Below the pieces are notes generated by a model. It was not told the DNA's origin and ran no database searches. It saw nothing but the letters and a program-made list of their open reading frames with translations. This document shows positions 973 through 6,633 of a stretch of 6,633 nucleotides of DNA, piece after piece. Within the stretch, counting starts at the first letter, position 1. Each line of letters opens with the position of its first letter. The position numbers and the translations under genes were made by a program. The stretch comes from Lautropia sp. Lineage in GTDB: Bacteria; Pseudomonadota; Gammaproteobacteria; Burkholderiales; Burkholderiaceae_E. The DNA is taken from contig JACCRJ010000299.1 in assembly GCA_013813615.1 (NCBI GenBank), positions 1 through 6,633 on the forward strand, in the 5' to 3' direction.

Positions 973-1479
973 TCAGCCGGCCGCCGGCTGGTAACCCGGC
1001 AGCGCGGGGTCCCTGGGGTCGTCGCGCTGGGGCAAGGCGTCGGCCTTGACGCGGGCCACCCGGTCCTCCTGGAATTCGATCGTCACCTTGCGCAACTCCG
1101 CGTCGCCGTTCGGATACTGGAAGCGAAACACGTAGTCCCAGCGGTTGGGATGGAAGATGTCGGTCAGCAGCGGCGAGCCGATGGTCAGCCTGACCTGCTC
1201 GCGGCTCATGCCTTCGCGCACCTGGTCCAGCATTTGCTGGTTGAGGTAGTTGCCCTGCGGGATGGAGAACTTGTAGGGCTCGAGGAAGCCGCTGCGGGAT
1301 CGGTCGGCGCTGGTGCATCCGCCGGCAAGCGCCAGCGCAAGCAGTAGTGCCGGCAAGAGTGTCGGCAAAAGTGCCGGCAACTGCGCCGGCAAAACCGCGG
1401 TCGCGCTCTGATATTCAGTACCTCCTCGGCGAGCCGATTTCAGGCCTCGATCCGCAGGAGCGGTTGGTGTGAAAGGCAT
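973..1479 (-). CDS. bamE: Outer membrane assembly lipoprotein BamE (SmpA/OmlA family)
   Basis: BamE is a small periplasm-facing lipoprotein of the BAM complex, which inserts beta-barrel proteins into the outer membrane. The product is 168 residues. After a long signal peptide comes LAGGC, with the lipidated cysteine at Cys55; Ala rather than Leu at -3 makes the lipobox slightly atypical. The mature part carries the family landmarks: [11 protein letters not shown], then [17 protein letters not shown], then [14 protein letters not shown], then a strand ending [13 protein letters not shown]. The proline-rich tail reaches past the usual core. The ATG at 1479 was chosen because AGGGAG (1487-1492) sits 7 bases upstream and because residues 11-20 supply the positive n-region (R, K, R, R). 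The hydrophobic core is built from a 12-bp tandem repeat. Gene context supports the call: divergent from fur, followed at once by dapB. Start codon confidence is moderate; family confidence is high. Confidence 0.92.
974..990. repeat. GC-rich inverted repeat at the bamE/dapB junction
   Basis: The plus-strand bases CAGCCGGC-C-GCCGGCTG form a perfect 8-bp inverted repeat around one central base. In the bamE-dapB transcript this can fold as a 6-bp GC stem with a 5-base loop, ending at the bamE stop codon two to three bases before the dapB ATG. It occupies the place where a dapB ribosome binding site would be expected. It also encodes the last bamE residues, so its conservation may be partly coding. 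Confidence 0.6.
1345..1392 (-). repeat. Four tandem 12-bp units in the bamE signal-peptide region
   Basis: Read on the minus strand from 1392, four adjacent 12-base units follow the pattern TTGCCGGCACTN with one to three changes: ttgccggcgcag, ttgccggcactt, ttgccgacactc, ttgccggcacta. They encode [12 protein letters not shown] and LPAL at residues 30-45. The next 12 bases (1333-1344, LLAL) look like a diverged fifth unit. The repeat stays in frame and extends the hydrophobic stretch before the lipobox. Confidence 0.85.
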
Positions 1480-1486
1480 CGTGGAA

Positions 1487-1492
1487 CTCCCT
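1487..1492 (-). promoter_or_regulatory. Ribosome binding site of bamE
   Basis: The minus strand reads AGGGAG here, 7 bases before the ATG at 1479. This decides the start. An even stronger Shine-Dalgarno-like string (GAGGAGGT, 1427-1420) lies inside the gene, but no in-frame ATG, GTG or TTG sits at a usable distance from it. Confidence 0.65.
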
Positions 1493-1536
1493 GCTGTGGG
1501 CGGCAGCCGCCCGGCCGGCGGCGCAATCGGACGCTG

Positions 1537-1543
1537 TATGATA
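1537..1543. promoter_or_regulatory. Symmetric -10 element (TATGATA) between bamE and fur
   Basis: The heptamer TATGATA reads as TATGAT on the plus strand, one mismatch from TATAAT, and as TATCAT on the minus strand, also one mismatch. It is the only AT-rich stretch in a GC-rich 97-bp spacer between divergent genes. Transcription would start near 1549 towards fur (about 28 bases before its GTG) and near 1531 towards bamE (about 52 bases before its ATG). No convincing -35 box is visible at 17 bp in either direction. An 8-bp palindrome, GTTGCAAC (1549-1556), lies at the expected fur start point and could be an operator; it does not resemble a classical Fur box. Confidence 0.45.
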
Positions 1544-1576
1544 AAGGTGTTGCAACCTCCCCATGTGCGAGCCGCC

Positions 1577-2005
1577 GTGTCGACCACTGCAGACTTGAAG
1601 AGTGCAGGACTGAAGGCTACCCTCCCACGGCTGAAGATCCTGGAGATTTTCCAGCATGGTCGCCAGCGCCACATGAGCGCGGAAGACGTCTACCGAGAGC
1701 TCCTGACGGAGCACCAGGACGTCGGACTGGCCACCGTCTACCGGGTCCTGACCCAGTTCGAGCAGGCCGGCATCCTCAAGCGCAGCAACTTCGAGTCTGG
1801 CAAGGCGGTCTTCGAGCTCGATGAGGGCTCCCACCACGACCATCTCGTCTGCCTGCAATGCGGCCGGGTAGAGGAATTCTTCGATTCCGCTATCGAGCAG
1901 CGGCAGCAGCGCGTCGCGGCGGAGCACGGCTTCGAGCTTCAGGAGCATGCGCTGGCGCTGTACGGCAACTGCAAGCGGCCGCAATGCCAGTATCGTCTCA
2001 GGTAG
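1577..2005 (+). CDS. fur: Ferric uptake regulator Fur
   Basis: Fur is a dimeric cytoplasmic repressor that binds operator DNA when loaded with Fe(II) and controls iron uptake. With the GTG at 1577 the product is 142 residues and lines up with Escherichia coli Fur with an offset of one. The N-terminal [12 protein letters not shown] is at 11-22. The winged-helix recognition region [19 protein letters not shown] is at 49-67. The metal site HHDH is at 86-89, and the structural zinc cysteines are Cys92/Cys95 and Cys132/Cys137 (93/96 and 133/138 in E. coli). An upstream in-frame ATG at 1538 would add 13 residues but lies inside the predicted -10 box, so I prefer the GTG although its ribosome binding site is weak. 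The gene diverges from bamE, and its last 22 bases overlap the start of the ATP-grasp gene, suggesting coupled translation. Confidence 0.96.
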
Positions 2006-3477
2006 GCGGCCAGTCGCAGCAGCAGTCCCAGTCGGCGGCGGATGAGCCCGGCCTGGCGCTGATAGCGCCGCCGGCAGCCGGCTATGACGAGATGCTGCTG
2101 CCGGACGGCGCGGTCCGTCCCCGTTATGCGGCCTATCAGGACTGGCTGCAGTCCCGGTCCGCGGACTGGATGGAGCGCAAGCGTGCCGAGGCAGACCTGA
2201 TCTTCCGGCGCACCGGGATCACGTTTTCCGTCTACGGGGACGAAACCGGTACCGAGCGCCTGATCCCGTCGGACGTCGTGCCGCGCATCATCGACGCCGA
2301 GGAGTGGGGCCGGCTCGAGCTCGGCCTCATCCAGCGGGTCAAGGCAATCAACCGCTTCCTCTGGGACATCTATCACCAGCAGGACATCCTGCGCGCCGGG
2401 CTCATCCCGGCAGACCAGATCCTCATCAACCAGCAGTACCAGGTGGCGATGGTGGGCGTGCAGGTGCCGCACCAGACGTACGCCCACATCGTCGGCGTCG
2501 ACCTGGTGCGCCACAACGACGGCGAGTTCTACGTGCTGGAGGACAACCTGCGAGTACCTTCGGGTGTGTCGTACATGCTGTCCAACCGCAAGATGATGAT
2601 GCGGTTGTTCCCGGAGCTGTTTCAGACGTATGCGGTCCGGCCGGTGGAGCATTACCCGGCGATGCTGCTGGACACGCTGAACAACGCGTCGCTTCAGGAC
2701 CGCCCCACCGTCGTGGTGCTGACGCCGGGCCCTTACAACAGCGCCTACTTCGAGCACGCCTTCCTGGCGCAGCAGATGGGCGTGGAGCTGGTGGAGGGCC
2801 GGGACCTCTTCGTGGAAGACGGGTTCGTCTACATGCGGACCACCTCCGGGCGCCAGCGCGTGGACGTGGTCTACCGCCGCCTGGACGACGTGTTCCTCGA
2901 CCCCCTGGCGTTCCGCCCGGACTCGGTCCTGGGAGTGCCCGGGCTGCTGGCCGCATACCGCCTGGGCAACGTCGTCATCTCGAACGCGATCGGCGCCGGG
3001 GTGGCCGACGACAAGTCCATCTACCCGTACGTCCCTGACATGATCCGCTTTTACCTCGGCGAGGAGCCGCTGCTCAAGAACGTGCCGACGTTCCAGTGCC
3101 GCAAGCCGGACGATCTCGCCTATGTGCTGGCGCACCTGCCGGAACTGGTGGTCAAGGAAGTCCACGGGGCCGGCGGCTACGGCATGCTCGTCGGGCCGAC
3201 CAGCAGCACCGAGGAGATCGACCGATTCCGCAAGGTGCTGATCGCCCGTCCGCAAAGCTACATCGCGCAGCCCACCTTGTCGCTGTCCACCTGCCCGACC
3301 TTCGTCGAGGAGGGCGTCGCGCCGAGGCACCTCGATCTCCGCCCGTTCGTGCTGACCGGCAGGGAGATCCGGATCGTGCCTGGCGGCCTTACCCGGGTCG
3401 CCCTGCGCAAGGGCTCGCTGGTGGTCAACAGTTCCCAGGGCGGCGGCACCAAGGACACATGGGTGGTGGACCACTGA
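1984..3477 (+). CDS. Circularly permuted ATP-grasp protein (COG2308, DUF404/DUF407)
   Basis: The 497-residue product belongs to the circularly permuted ATP-grasp family related to glutathionylspermidine synthetase. The family is predicted to form amide or peptide bonds at the expense of ATP; no member's substrate is inferable here. The conserved core runs from GYDEM (about residues 33-37) to the end. It includes [13 protein letters not shown], then [17 protein letters not shown] with the likely metal/ATP residues Glu186-Asp187-Asn188, then [15 protein letters not shown], then [14 protein letters not shown]. After these come [34 protein letters not shown] with Lys391, [19 protein letters not shown], and the near-terminal [12 protein letters not shown]. 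All family motifs look intact. Residues 2-18 are a Gln/Ser-rich tail outside the family core. The ATG at 1984 is the last good start before the core and overlaps fur by 22 bp. The stop overlaps the alpha-E start by one base (TGATG). Confidence 0.93.
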
Positions 3478-4409
3478 TGCTCTCCCGGGTCGCATCGCAT
3501 CTCTACTGGATGGCCCGCTACCTGGAACGCGCGGAGAACATGGCGCGGATCCTGGACGTCGGCCAGTTGCTCTCCCTGGTTTCGCGCGGCGCCGGCAGCG
3601 AAGCGTCCGCCATCGAACCGCTGGTCATCACCAACTCTCTGGACGCCTTCGACGCGTCCGGCCGCGCCCGCACGCCGGAGGACGTCGCCGGCTACCTCGC
3701 GTGGGACGGCCTGCATGACTCCAGCATCTTCAATTGCCTGCGCAACAGCCGGGAGAACGCCCGCGCCGTCCGTGCCGACATCACCACCGAGATGTGGGAG
3801 GACATCAACGACACCTGGCTACACCTGCTGCAGAAGCGCCATCAGGACCACGAGCCGGCAGACAACGCCTTCTTCGAATGGGTGAAGGAACGCAGTCACC
3901 TGTTTCGCGGGATCACCTTCGCCACCATTCGACGTGACCAGCCCTACCATTTCATCCGGCTGGGCACGTTCATCGAGCGGGCCGACAACACCGCGCGGAT
4001 CCTGTCGGTCAAGCAATCCACGCGCGGAACGTCCCAGGCCGGCGACGAAGTCACCGACTATTACCGCCTGAGCGCGGTGCTGCGTTCGGTGAGCGCGTTC
4101 GAGGCGTATCGCGACACCTACCGGGACGGTGTCGACGAGCGCCACGTCGCGGAACTGCTGATACTGGACCCGACGCTGCCGCGCTCCCTGCGATTCTGCT
4201 TCGACGAGATCGTGCGGATCCTGACGCTGCTTCCGGGCGCCACCGCCAAACCCGCCCGCCGCCTCGCGGTGACGCTGCTCGCCAACCTCGAGTTCGCCAG
4301 CATCGAGGAGATCTACAGCGAGGACTACCATGGGTTCCTCGAGCGGTTCCTGCTGGAGACGGCGCAACTCGGCGACGCGCTGCATCATGCCTACCTGGAA
4401 CTGAAGTAG
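3477..4409 (+). CDS. Alpha-E domain protein (COG2307, DUF403)
   Basis: The 310-residue protein is an all-helical alpha-E domain of the usual length. Its biochemical role is unknown; it is a constant companion of the circularly permuted ATP-grasp and is presumed to act in the same pathway. The hallmark helix motif occurs twice: HLYWMARYLERAENMARIL (residues 8-26, with Glu17-Arg18-Ala-Glu-Asn21) and LGTFIERADNTARIL (about 163-176, with Glu167-Arg168-Ala-Asp-Asn171). Other conserved segments are SIFNCLRNSRENARAVR, ITTEMWEDIN, YYRLSAVLRSVSAFEAYR and PRSLRFCFDEI. I see no signal peptide or membrane span. The start codon shares one base with the upstream stop, and a GGTGGA at 3465-3470 could serve as ribosome binding site. 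The stop codon overlaps the ribosome binding site of the next gene. Confidence 0.94.
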   Translation: MLSRVASHLYWMARYLERAENMARILDVGQLLSLVSRGAGSEASAIEPLVITNSLDAFDASGRARTPEDVAGYLAWDGLHDSSIFNCLRNSRENARAVRADITTEMWEDINDTWLHLLQKRHQDHEPADNAFFEWVKERSHLFRGITFATIRRDQPYHFIRLGTFIERADNTARILSVKQSTRGTSQAGDEVTDYYRLSAVLRSVSAFEAYRDTYRDGVDERHVAELLILDPTLPRSLRFCFDEIVRILTLLPGATAKPARRLAVTLLANLEFASIEEIYSEDYHGFLERFLLETAQLGDALHHAYLELK

Positions 4410-4419: not shown

Positions 4420-5214
4420 GTGAAGCTGTCCGTCTACCACGCCACCACCTACCGCTATGCCGAACCGGTGTCGCGCAGTACCCAGTACATCCGCCTCACG
4501 CCGGTCACCAACAACCGGCAGCGGGTGCTGGAGTGGCAGCTGGACCTGCCGACGCGCTCGATCGAGCTGCTGGATGCGTTCGGCAACCTGACCAACCTGA
4601 TGACGCTGTCCACCTCGCACGATTCGATCGCCATTGTCGGCACCGGTACGGTAGAGGTGCCCGAGGTCGACGAAGGCGAACCGGCGGACCTCGTCCACCC
4701 CCGGGTGTTCCTGCGGGAGACCGAACTGACGGCGCTCGACGAGTCGATCGCAGCCTTCTGCGAGCCGATGCGCAAGCAGGTCGCGAGCCGGCCGCTGATC
4801 GGTGCCACCGACCTGATGACGGCGGTGCAGCAGGTCATGTCACACAAGGCTGGCGTGACGGACGCGGAGACCACGGCGTCTCAGGCGTTCTCGCTGCAGG
4901 GGGGCGCGGCGCAGGACCAGGTGCACGTGTTCCTCGCCTGCTGTCGCCATCTCGGACTGCCGGCGCGCTATGTCAGCGGCTATGCCTACACCCAGGACCG
5001 CGCCGCCGTCGCCAGCAGGGCCTGGTCGGAGGTCTGGATCAGCAACCGCTGGGTCGGCTTCGACGTGAGCCTCGGCAGCAATGCCGACGGCGGGCACATC
5101 AAGCTGGCGGTGGGACTCGACTACCGCGACGCCTGCCCGGTTCGGGGCATCCGCCTGGGCGGCGGCGAAGAGGTGCTTTCCACCACCTCGCAGGTGAGGA
5201 AGGCCGGGACCTGA
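4420..5214 (+). CDS. Transglutaminase-like protein lacking catalytic Cys and His (predicted pseudoenzyme)
   Basis: The 264-residue protein has the N-terminal beta domain typical of bacterial transglutaminase-like proteins (KLSVYHATTYRYAEPV through LRLTP-like and DAFGNLTNLMTL, about 1-80) and a C-terminal papain-like core. In active relatives the core reads GVCQD-AH...VFLACCRSLG-PARYVSGY, then ASHAWVEVW, then GFD. Here the first motif is GAAQDQVHVFLACCRHLG, so the nucleophile Cys is Ala164. The second is ASRAWSEVW, so the catalytic His is Arg200. Asp215 in WVGFD is kept. Residues around the site (Gln165, Asp166, ARYVSGY, WSEVW) and the C-terminal DYRDACPVRGIRLGGG block are conserved, and there is no frameshift or stop. 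The family normally acts as a cysteine peptidase or amide-forming enzyme; this one probably cannot use that chemistry. It is the last gene of the cassette, 10 bp after alpha-E, and 42 bp from the convergent recN stop. Confidence 0.93.
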   Translation: MKLSVYHATTYRYAEPVSRSTQYIRLTPVTNNRQRVLEWQLDLPTRSIELLDAFGNLTNLMTLSTSHDSIAIVGTGTVEVPEVDEGEPADLVHPRVFLRETELTALDESIAAFCEPMRKQVASRPLIGATDLMTAVQQVMSHKAGVTDAETTASQAFSLQGGAAQDQVHVFLACCRHLGLPARYVSGYAYTQDRAAVASRAWSEVWISNRWVGFDVSLGSNADGGHIKLAVGLDYRDACPVRGIRLGGGEEVLSTTSQVRKAGT

Positions 5215-5260
5215 GCCCTGATGTCGCGCGCCCCGCCTGGTGGGGGTGGAGCCGGCTCAG
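5211..5260. terminator. Possible bidirectional hairpin between convergent stops
   Basis: A perfect 7-bp inverted repeat, CTGAGCC (5211-5217) and GGCTCAG (5254-5260), brackets the space between the two genes and contains both stop codons. A small inner stem CCCC...GGGG (5231-5234 with 5242-5245) could stack inside it, and the palindrome GAGCCGGCTC (5249-5258) offers an alternative fold. There is no T-run on either side, so this is not a textbook intrinsic terminator. Confidence 0.3.
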
Positions 5261-6633
5261 CGTTCGACCTGCTGTCCGGGGCGCTTCCTGGGCGGCTTCC
5301 CCGTGTGCATTTCCGGTTGCCTCACGGATATCCGCCCGCCGGCGTCGAGCATTTCCCGGGCGTGCGCGCGGGTGGTGTCGGTGATGCGCCTGCCGCCCAG
5401 CATCCTCGCAATTTCCTCGAGGCGCAGCTCGTCTGTGAGCGCTTCCACCTGGCTGCTGATCACGTCGCCGGCGTTGCTGCCGGGCTTCAGGGGGCGGCTG
5501 GTCTTGCTCACCTTCAGCTGGTGATCCGCGCGGCTCGCGACCTGGGGCAGATGAGTGACGCAGAAGACCTGGCAGCTGCTCGCCAGCCGCTGCATGAGTT
5601 CGCCGACCACCGCAGCCACCGCGCCGCCTATGCCGGCGTCGGCTTCGTCGAAGATCAGGGTCGGGACCGGGTTGGCCTGCGCGGCGAGAACGGTGATGGC
5701 CAGTCCCAGCCTGGACAGCTCGCCGCCGGAAGCCACCTTGGCGACCGGACGAGGCACTGCGCCGGCGTGTGCAGCGATGCGAAATTCAATGGCGTCTGCG
5801 CCGGCTGGCCCCGCGGTGGCAGGCTCGCAGGCAACCAGCAGGCGCGCCTTGGCCATTCCGAGGCGGCCGAGCTGCTCGCTTACGCCCGCGGCAAGCCGGG
5901 CCGCAACCGCACGGCGGGCCTTGCCGAGTGACTGTGCCTGCGTGTCGTAGGCCTGGCGGCCGTCGGCTGCCGCGGCCTGCAGCGCGTCGAGATCCTGCGC
6001 GCCAGCAAGCTGTGCATGCTCCGCGCGCAGTTCCTCCTGATGCTGGTACAGGCGCTCCGGCGGCAGCTTCATCTTGCGCGCCGTGGTGAACACCGCGCTC
6101 ACCCGCTGTTCCACTTCCGCCAGGCGTTGCGGATCCAGGTCCATCCGCTGCACGTAGGCCGCCAGTTCGCTGCCGGCCTCGTCCAACTGGATCGAGGCGG
6201 AGTCGATCAGGTCGGCTACCGGCGCCAGCACGGCATCGAGGCCGCTGAGTGCCCGCAGCCGGTGCTCCAGGCCAGCCAGGGTTTCGGTGACGGCGCCGTC
6301 TCCCCTGGATAAGGCGATCGAGGCGGCGTCCGCGCCTTCGATCAGGTCCTTGGCGTGGGCGAGGCGCTTCTGCTCGTTACTCAGCTCTTCCCACTCGCCG
6401 TCGGCCAGTCGCAGCTGCTCGATTTCCTGAAGCTCCCAGCGCAGCCGCTCGGCGCGGATCTCGTGCTCCCGCGAACCGCGCCGGGCTTCGTCTAGCGCCT
6501 TCTCCGCCTGCTGCCATTGCGCGTACGTTGCGCCGACGGCTGCGACCTGGGGCTCCAGCTTGCCGAAGCGGTCCAGCAGTTCCCGCTGGGCGCCGGGCCG
6601 CATGAGGATCCTCGCTTCGTGCTGGCCGTGGAT
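5257..6633 (-). CDS. recN: DNA repair ATPase RecN (5' end outside window)
   Basis: RecN is an SMC-like cytoplasmic ATPase acting in recombinational repair of double-strand breaks. The visible part is the C-terminal 458 residues of a protein that usually has about 555; the Walker A loop lies beyond the right edge. The fragment opens with IHGQHEARIL, the family's IHGQH signature just after the N-terminal ATPase lobe. It continues through a long charged coiled-coil region with the conserved ARKMKLPPERL segment. The ABC signature KVASGGELSRLGLAI follows (about 5715-5740), then Walker B LIFDEADAGIGG (about 5630-5667) and the switch region VTHLPQVASRADHQLKV. The usual Walker B core is FDEVDVGIGG, so both valines are alanine here, but the essential Asp-Glu pair is kept. 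The last 20 residues form a basic Lys/Arg/Pro-rich tail. The gene converges with the cassette. Confidence 0.96.
   Translation of the reverse strand: MHGQHEARILMRPGAQRELLDRFGKLEPQVAAVGATYAQWQQAEKALDEARRGSREHEIRAERLRWELQEIEQLRLADGEWEELSNEQKRLAHAKDLIEGADAASIALSRGDGAVTETLAGLEHRLRALSGLDAVLAPVADLIDSASIQLDEAGSELAAYVQRMDLDPQRLAEVEQRVSAVFTTARKMKLPPERLYQHQEELRAEHAQLAGAQDLDALQAAAADGRQAYDTQAQSLGKARRAVAARLAAGVSEQLGRLGMAKARLLVACEPATAGPAGADAIEFRIAAHAGAVPRPVAKVASGGELSRLGLAITVLAAQANPVPTLIFDEADAGIGGAVAAVVGELMQRLASSCQVFCVTHLPQVASRADHQLKVSKTSRPLKPGSNAGDVISSQVEALTDELRLEEIARMLGGRRITDTTRAHAREMLDAGGRISVRQPEMHTGKPPRKRPGQQVER

Follow-up and report, generated by a model that had tools for sequence, protein, structure and literature searches.

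A transglutaminase-like protein without catalytic Cys and His in an Anbu-type operon that lacks Anbu: a putative binding subunit of an ATP-grasp/alpha-E ligase

Why should an operon keep a transglutaminase-like gene whose product has lost the catalytic Cys and the catalytic His? This question is raised by the window, the whole stretch of 6,633 nucleotides analysed in this study, in which such a gene directly follows the genes for a circularly permuted ATP-grasp protein and an alpha-E protein (Table 1). The order ATP-grasp, alpha-E, transglutaminase is shared with the Anbu operons of Yersinia bercovieri and other bacteria, as described in the available parts of two papers; the transglutaminases there have the Cys-His-Asp triad and are accompanied by Anbu, whereas the window has no Cys, no His, and no operonic Anbu (PMC6376114, PMC5666114). 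According to the available text, no specific complex of the Y. bercovieri Anbu-operon proteins was seen when Anbu served as the bait, and hypotheses on the function of the operon were, to its authors' knowledge in 2017, unconfirmed (PMC6376114). In Burkholderia cenocepacia, a cluster that contains DUF404, DUF403, and transglutaminase-like genes is described in excerpts of a further paper as NtrC- and sigma54-dependent (PMC5491218). Among the best matches in the open-licence PMC literature, no report of triad loss in Anbu-operon transglutaminases was found.

Table 1. Positions of genes, key codons, and the gap at the Anbu place in the window
Feature	Position	Strand	Basis or remark
fur-family gene, left flank	1469..2005	+	PF01475, E 1.3e-45
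Circularly permuted ATP-grasp gene	1858..3477	+	PF14403, E 3e-166; open frame, true start further in
alpha-E gene	3474..4409	+	PF04168, E 2.5e-89
Pseudo-transglutaminase gene (probable)	4420..5214	+	264 aa, GTG start
Codon 114, TGC (Cys)	4759..4761	+	39/42 clade members, 0/66 C-H-D relatives
Codon 164, GCG (Ala), place of catalytic Cys	4909..4911	+	Codon reading; alignment to PDB 3isr
Codon 200, AGG (Arg), place of catalytic His	5017..5019	+	Codon reading; alignment to PDB 3isr
Codon 215, GAC (Asp), third triad residue kept	5062..5064	+	Gln in ten-member subclade
Gap at the usual Anbu place	5215..5256	.	42 bases between transglutaminase gene and recN-like gene
recN-like gene, right flank, cut by window end	5257..6633	-	PF02463, 33.4 bits, below cut-off of 40

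The protein matches PF08379 (E 5.1e-19) and PF01841 (E 9.6e-15), both above cut-off, and no other domain. NCBIfam gave no match for three proteins. Antibody light chains among the PDB sequence matches were taken as chance. A transglutaminase fold was modelled confidently, with a structural match to PDB 3isr, a putative cysteine protease of Cytophaga hutchinsonii. In the profile alignment, read by eye, columns 164, 200, and 215 pair with the Cys, His, and Asp of 3isr, which, unlike the window protein, has all three; a misaligned triad was ruled out by this alignment together with those of the relatives. EPB42 (PDB 7uzs), which we take to be erythrocyte protein 4.2, was also counted among the closest known systems. 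Hereafter, triads are given as the residues at these three columns (C-H-D for the intact form). The initial annotation had placed Ala164 and Arg200 at the catalytic Cys and His, with Asp215 intact, in an open frame with a good start and ribosome binding site; the codons GCG, AGG, and GAC, the uninterrupted 264-residue frame, its GTG, and GGGAG shortly 5' of it bear this out. Sequencing error, named there as a possible refutation, is excluded because P0002, a protein from another source that is 97% identical to the window protein, is also A-R-D, and the whole clade described below carries the same loss. Since neither the nucleophile nor the general base remains, catalysis has very probably been lost. 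Arg200 probably pairs with Asp215.

The locus is of the Anbu operon type (ATP-grasp, alpha-E, transglutaminase, Anbu); in the window, operonic Anbu is missing. The true ATP-grasp start lies further in because the first part of the open frame overlaps fur. The left side of the window also carries dapB and bamE; the truncated gene on the right is presumably recN. No Anbu match was obtained within the window, and nothing in the gap behind the transglutaminase gene could be recognised as a remnant, the best match covering 13 residues at E 10; a divergent Anbu is present on another contig, C315, of the same genome. Outside the window's family, Anbu lies behind the transglutaminase gene at 59/59 loci in one set; the other set, of shorter loci, has it at 23/25. 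PF00227 is matched above cut-off by one operonic Anbu. The initial annotation overlooked that the cassette is an Anbu operon without its Anbu, that the loss recurs, and that the gene is deleted in some genomes.

Family loci were taken from the best 30 matches with loci. The more distant loci L139-L142 (33-36% identical, all C-H-D) were left out of the orthologue set. L194-L197, whose alpha-E is 39-45% identical and where neither fur nor recN was matched, were set aside before counting as a different kind of operon. The ATP-grasp/alpha-E/transglutaminase synteny is kept in relatives, and wherever the family loci are long enough, they have dapB, bamE, and fur as left flank and recN as right flank, which identifies them as positional orthologues. 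The 26 short-form orthologues found in 74 genomes of the family comprise 19 C-H-D, four S-H-D, one A-H-D, one G-H-D, and the A-R-D form of the window. The Ser forms, with His and Asp kept (L043, L044, L048, and L050), may still be active. Outside the family, the best 80 of 228 relatives in the related-locus search were used, and the triad is C-H-D at 84/84 loci examined (part of the matches; a few identical), so triad loss in the window's family is beyond chance. Within the family, Anbu is present at the locus with 17 C-H-D, two S-H-D, and one G-H-D transglutaminases; it is absent with two S-H-D, one C-H-D, and the window form, a fragment with A-H-D, and unreadable for one C-H-D. L136 was left out of the Anbu counts, as its contig ends there. 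The remnant behind the A-H-D gene is a shortened Anbu (L047, gap 5780-6146, genome G065).

Nine further family genomes (L185-L193) have no transglutaminase gene at the locus and keep the ATP-grasp and alpha-E genes, so the transglutaminase gene is dispensable. In eight of them Anbu directly follows alpha-E (three at contig ends); in L185, recN follows alpha-E.

The wider relationships were studied with two protein searches. The first gave 3385 relatives, of which the best 120 were used. The second took an alignment of divergent members as its query; it found 721 relatives at E <= 1e-60, of which the best 120 were again used, and added P0122-P0126. Fragments P0031 (F-R-D) and P0053 (I at 164, remainder missing) and duplicate rows were excluded from the trees. 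In a 188-row tree built without the triad columns, the window protein falls in a 42-sequence clade (SH-aLRT 99). Among the matches listed, no clade member has Cys at 164 or His at 200, 40/42 have Arg200, and 12/42 have a residue other than Asp at 215. Position 164 is V in 21 members, R in 8, A in 5, F and G in 2 each, and I, L, P, and W in 1 each. The 23 clade rows included in a more careful 93-row tree again form one clade (support 100/99). Length is 264 aa in 38/42 members. A nested ten-member subclade (P0033, P0035, P0040, P0104, P0107, and P0122-P0126) has R-R-Q at the triad places in eight members and G-R-Q or G-Q-Q in the others. The triad-intact orthologues of the clade are 56-60% identical, which makes it a case of a bacterial pseudo-transglutaminase with intact orthologues at this distance.

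Residues fixed or nearly fixed in the clade were identified by comparing 32 of its members with 66 C-H-D relatives; they are Ala163 (32 members), Arg200 (31), Asp90 (31), Ser64 (29), Arg236 (29), and Cys114 (29). The 18 positions tabulated for the full clade were hand-chosen. The initial annotation had asked whether orthologues share Ala and Arg at the two catalytic places. Arg200 is present in most of the clade, Ala164 in few members, and the family as a whole is mostly C-H-D. The suggestion that Gln and Val after QD record a reshaping of the pocket after the loss of catalysis did not stand, because relatives with an intact triad have the same residues (Gln167 in 4/66 C-H-D relatives; CQDQVH in P0054 and P0064).

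Loss of the nucleophile is recurrent. Parsimony gave 13 changes between Cys and non-Cys (15 maximal Cys-less clades) and six between His and non-His on the 188-row tree, and 10 and four changes, respectively, on the 93-row tree. A single ancient loss for all Cys-less relatives was rejected (p-AU 4.7e-5; the tested group, 48/93 rows, was defined by residue after a tree had been inspected). Among the metagenomic matches listed, further forms are Y-, N-, V-, and H-H-D, S-C-D, S-L-D, S-R-D, G-R-D, and C-R-D. Most intermediates have lost Cys and kept His and Asp; the order of loss is not fixed, since P0117 and P0129 are C-R-D.

Constraint in the dead clade was judged by relative distances, with codon data for the window alone and with protein databases as the source, where broken copies are hidden. 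The transglutaminase/alpha-E distance ratio was 1.36 for window pairs (n = 16), 1.31 for pairs with other Cys-less loci (n = 75), and 1.47 for C-H-D pairs (n = 45); the transglutaminase/ATP-grasp ratio was 2.75, 2.81, and 2.95, respectively. When scaled to the operon partners, the divergence of the dead protein does not exceed that of its triad-intact orthologues. The interpretation in the initial annotation is supported in part: catalysis is very probably gone, the loss is common to a whole clade, and divergence is not raised against the partners; the scaffolding or regulatory role that it proposed is putative. Site variability in the dead and C-H-D sets is correlated (Spearman 0.55). For the S-H-D pair L043-L044, the only Cys-less pair with nucleotide sequences for both members, dN/dS was 0.047 for the transglutaminase, 0.043 for alpha-E, and 0.027 for ATP-grasp; computable C-H-D transglutaminase pairs ranged from 0.011 to 0.29. 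The window deviates at columns invariant elsewhere in ATP-grasp (6/265), alpha-E (8/103), and transglutaminase (4/74). As the two partners deviate too, the whole window operon lies on a long branch.

Judging from sequence comparison, we favour, with a probability of about 0.6, a catalytically dead and still selected pseudo-transglutaminase that would act as a binding subunit for the ATP-grasp/alpha-E ligase encoded next to it. A binding-partner role is favoured because constraint continues, most of the protein is conserved, and new residues are fixed in the clade. The old pocket would hold its ligand rather than cut it, and the ligand may be a substrate, product, or carrier of the ATP-grasp ligase. 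Cys would usually have been lost first and His later, with deletion of the gene in some lineages. What is retained of the operon seems to be the ATP-grasp/alpha-E pair. Against the binding reading speak the lack of a specific complex among the Y. bercovieri proteins, the dispensability of the gene, the long branch of the whole window operon, and the gain of a Cys at 114.

We regard RloB of Pseudomonas aeruginosa as the closest functional precedent for the window protein. In the available portion of its report, RloB is an inactive transglutaminase protein acting with an ATP-grasp protein of its own operon, and protease-mutant defects are rescued by mutations in RloB and in that ATP-grasp protein (PMC12239564). 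Both systems combine a transglutaminase domain that is inactive, very probably so in the window, with an operonic ATP-grasp protein. They differ in that RloB, as far as the same portion goes, is a membrane protein with a RimK-like ATP-grasp partner and an aspartic peptidase in the operon, whereas the window protein has two soluble-looking domains and is accompanied by a circularly permuted ATP-grasp protein and alpha-E. Seven transmembrane helices of the RloB type were not found in the window protein, either in its domain matches or in the secondary structure of its model. A further seven-helix transglutaminase, likewise inactive, has an effect on vesicle production, according to the part of that paper available (PMC12096838).

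The main rival to the binding-subunit reading is a slow erosion of the operon, in which Anbu left, catalysis became unneeded, the active site was lost under weak selection, and the gene is heading to deletion with no new role. We consider it unlikely, although several observations fit it, namely the graded series from C-H-D through Cys-less forms with His to forms without both and to absence of the gene, the presence of a DUF2126 cassette in all nine genomes without the gene, and the missing or broken Anbu at 4/7 Cys-less versus 1/18 readable C-H-D loci (Fisher p 0.012; genomes not independent). However, an eroding protein agrees poorly with a divergence no faster than that of the partners, a near-constant length in the clade, new residues fixed there, and the existence of the Arg-Arg-Gln subclade. 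That the active site has migrated and an unusual enzyme survives, with another Cys such as Cys114 working in the pocket, is in our judgement very improbable. Cys114 is present in nearly all of the clade and in none of the 66 C-H-D relatives, and pseudoenzymes of other kinds with migrated residues are described in the available part of one paper (PMC10211241), but in the model Cys114 lies in the helix 108-123, which precedes the helix of the former nucleophile by about 50 residues, and no His has been gained and fixed in the clade.

It also seems improbable, though less so, that another transglutaminase of the cell took over catalysis and that the dead copy regulates or competes with that enzyme. 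The proposal of a second active transglutaminase elsewhere, made in the initial annotation, fared differently for gene absence and for Cys loss. Gene absence is associated with the DUF2126-bearing cassette, which we take as the second cassette (9/9 genomes without the gene versus 12/26 with it; p 0.005, genomes treated as independent), but Cys loss is not tied to it (4/7 Cys-less versus 8/19 C-H-D genomes; p 0.67, likewise treated as independent), and redundancy with this cassette was rejected as the cause of Cys loss. A divergent Anbu, 49-54% identical, lies elsewhere in 5/6 genomes without an intact operonic Anbu, the exception being G065 (79% complete), versus 1/28 with one (3/28 if 30-32% matches count), which would suit such a relocation. 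The transglutaminase beside the solo Anbu of G032, however, has Cys but no His at the aligned place (read by eye). The window's own assembly (720 contigs, 82% complete) contains one alpha-E and two PF01841 matches, the window gene and a 714-aa TgpA-type membrane protein with Cys, His, and Asp; DUF2126 was not found in this assembly. A search for a paralogue with an intact triad, as had been proposed, thus yielded one protein of another type but no second cassette.

A broader reading is possible, and we put it forward tentatively. In the family, the catalytic half of this operon would be dismantled again and again, with the nucleophile replaced more than 10 times, the transglutaminase gene deleted, and Anbu moved out. 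In one clade the dead site would have been converted into a new charged pocket, first X-Arg-Asp and later Arg-Arg-Gln, by which the ATP-grasp/alpha-E product or carrier is read. If this is true, ligation is the core of the pathway and the transglutaminase is a reader of the ligation product. The active, dead, and absent versions of the transglutaminase, with ATP-grasp and alpha-E kept, amount to a natural dissection of the Anbu operon that points to ligation as its core.

The genus label of the source genome looks doubtful, because alpha-E is absent from 8/8 further genomes that carry the same genus label (G001-G008) and the window Fur is 58-62% identical to the Fur of these eight and at least 70% identical at 18/22 loci of other genera. 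The window DapB is about equally far from the "same genus" genomes and from other genera, and a MoxR-like protein on another contig behaves likewise. It is possible that the window contig is foreign to the assembly (mis-binned); the check by DapB and the MoxR-like protein gave like behaviour for the two contigs.

Solo Anbu genes 49-51% identical to operonic Anbu were observed in the window's own genome (L198:6337-7161, contig C315) and at L199, L200, and L201; the queries used gave no transglutaminase match beside these four. In G032, a separate transglutaminase-Anbu pair lies at L202:4939-6604. The solo Anbu proteins share a C-terminal tail that is common to four genomes.
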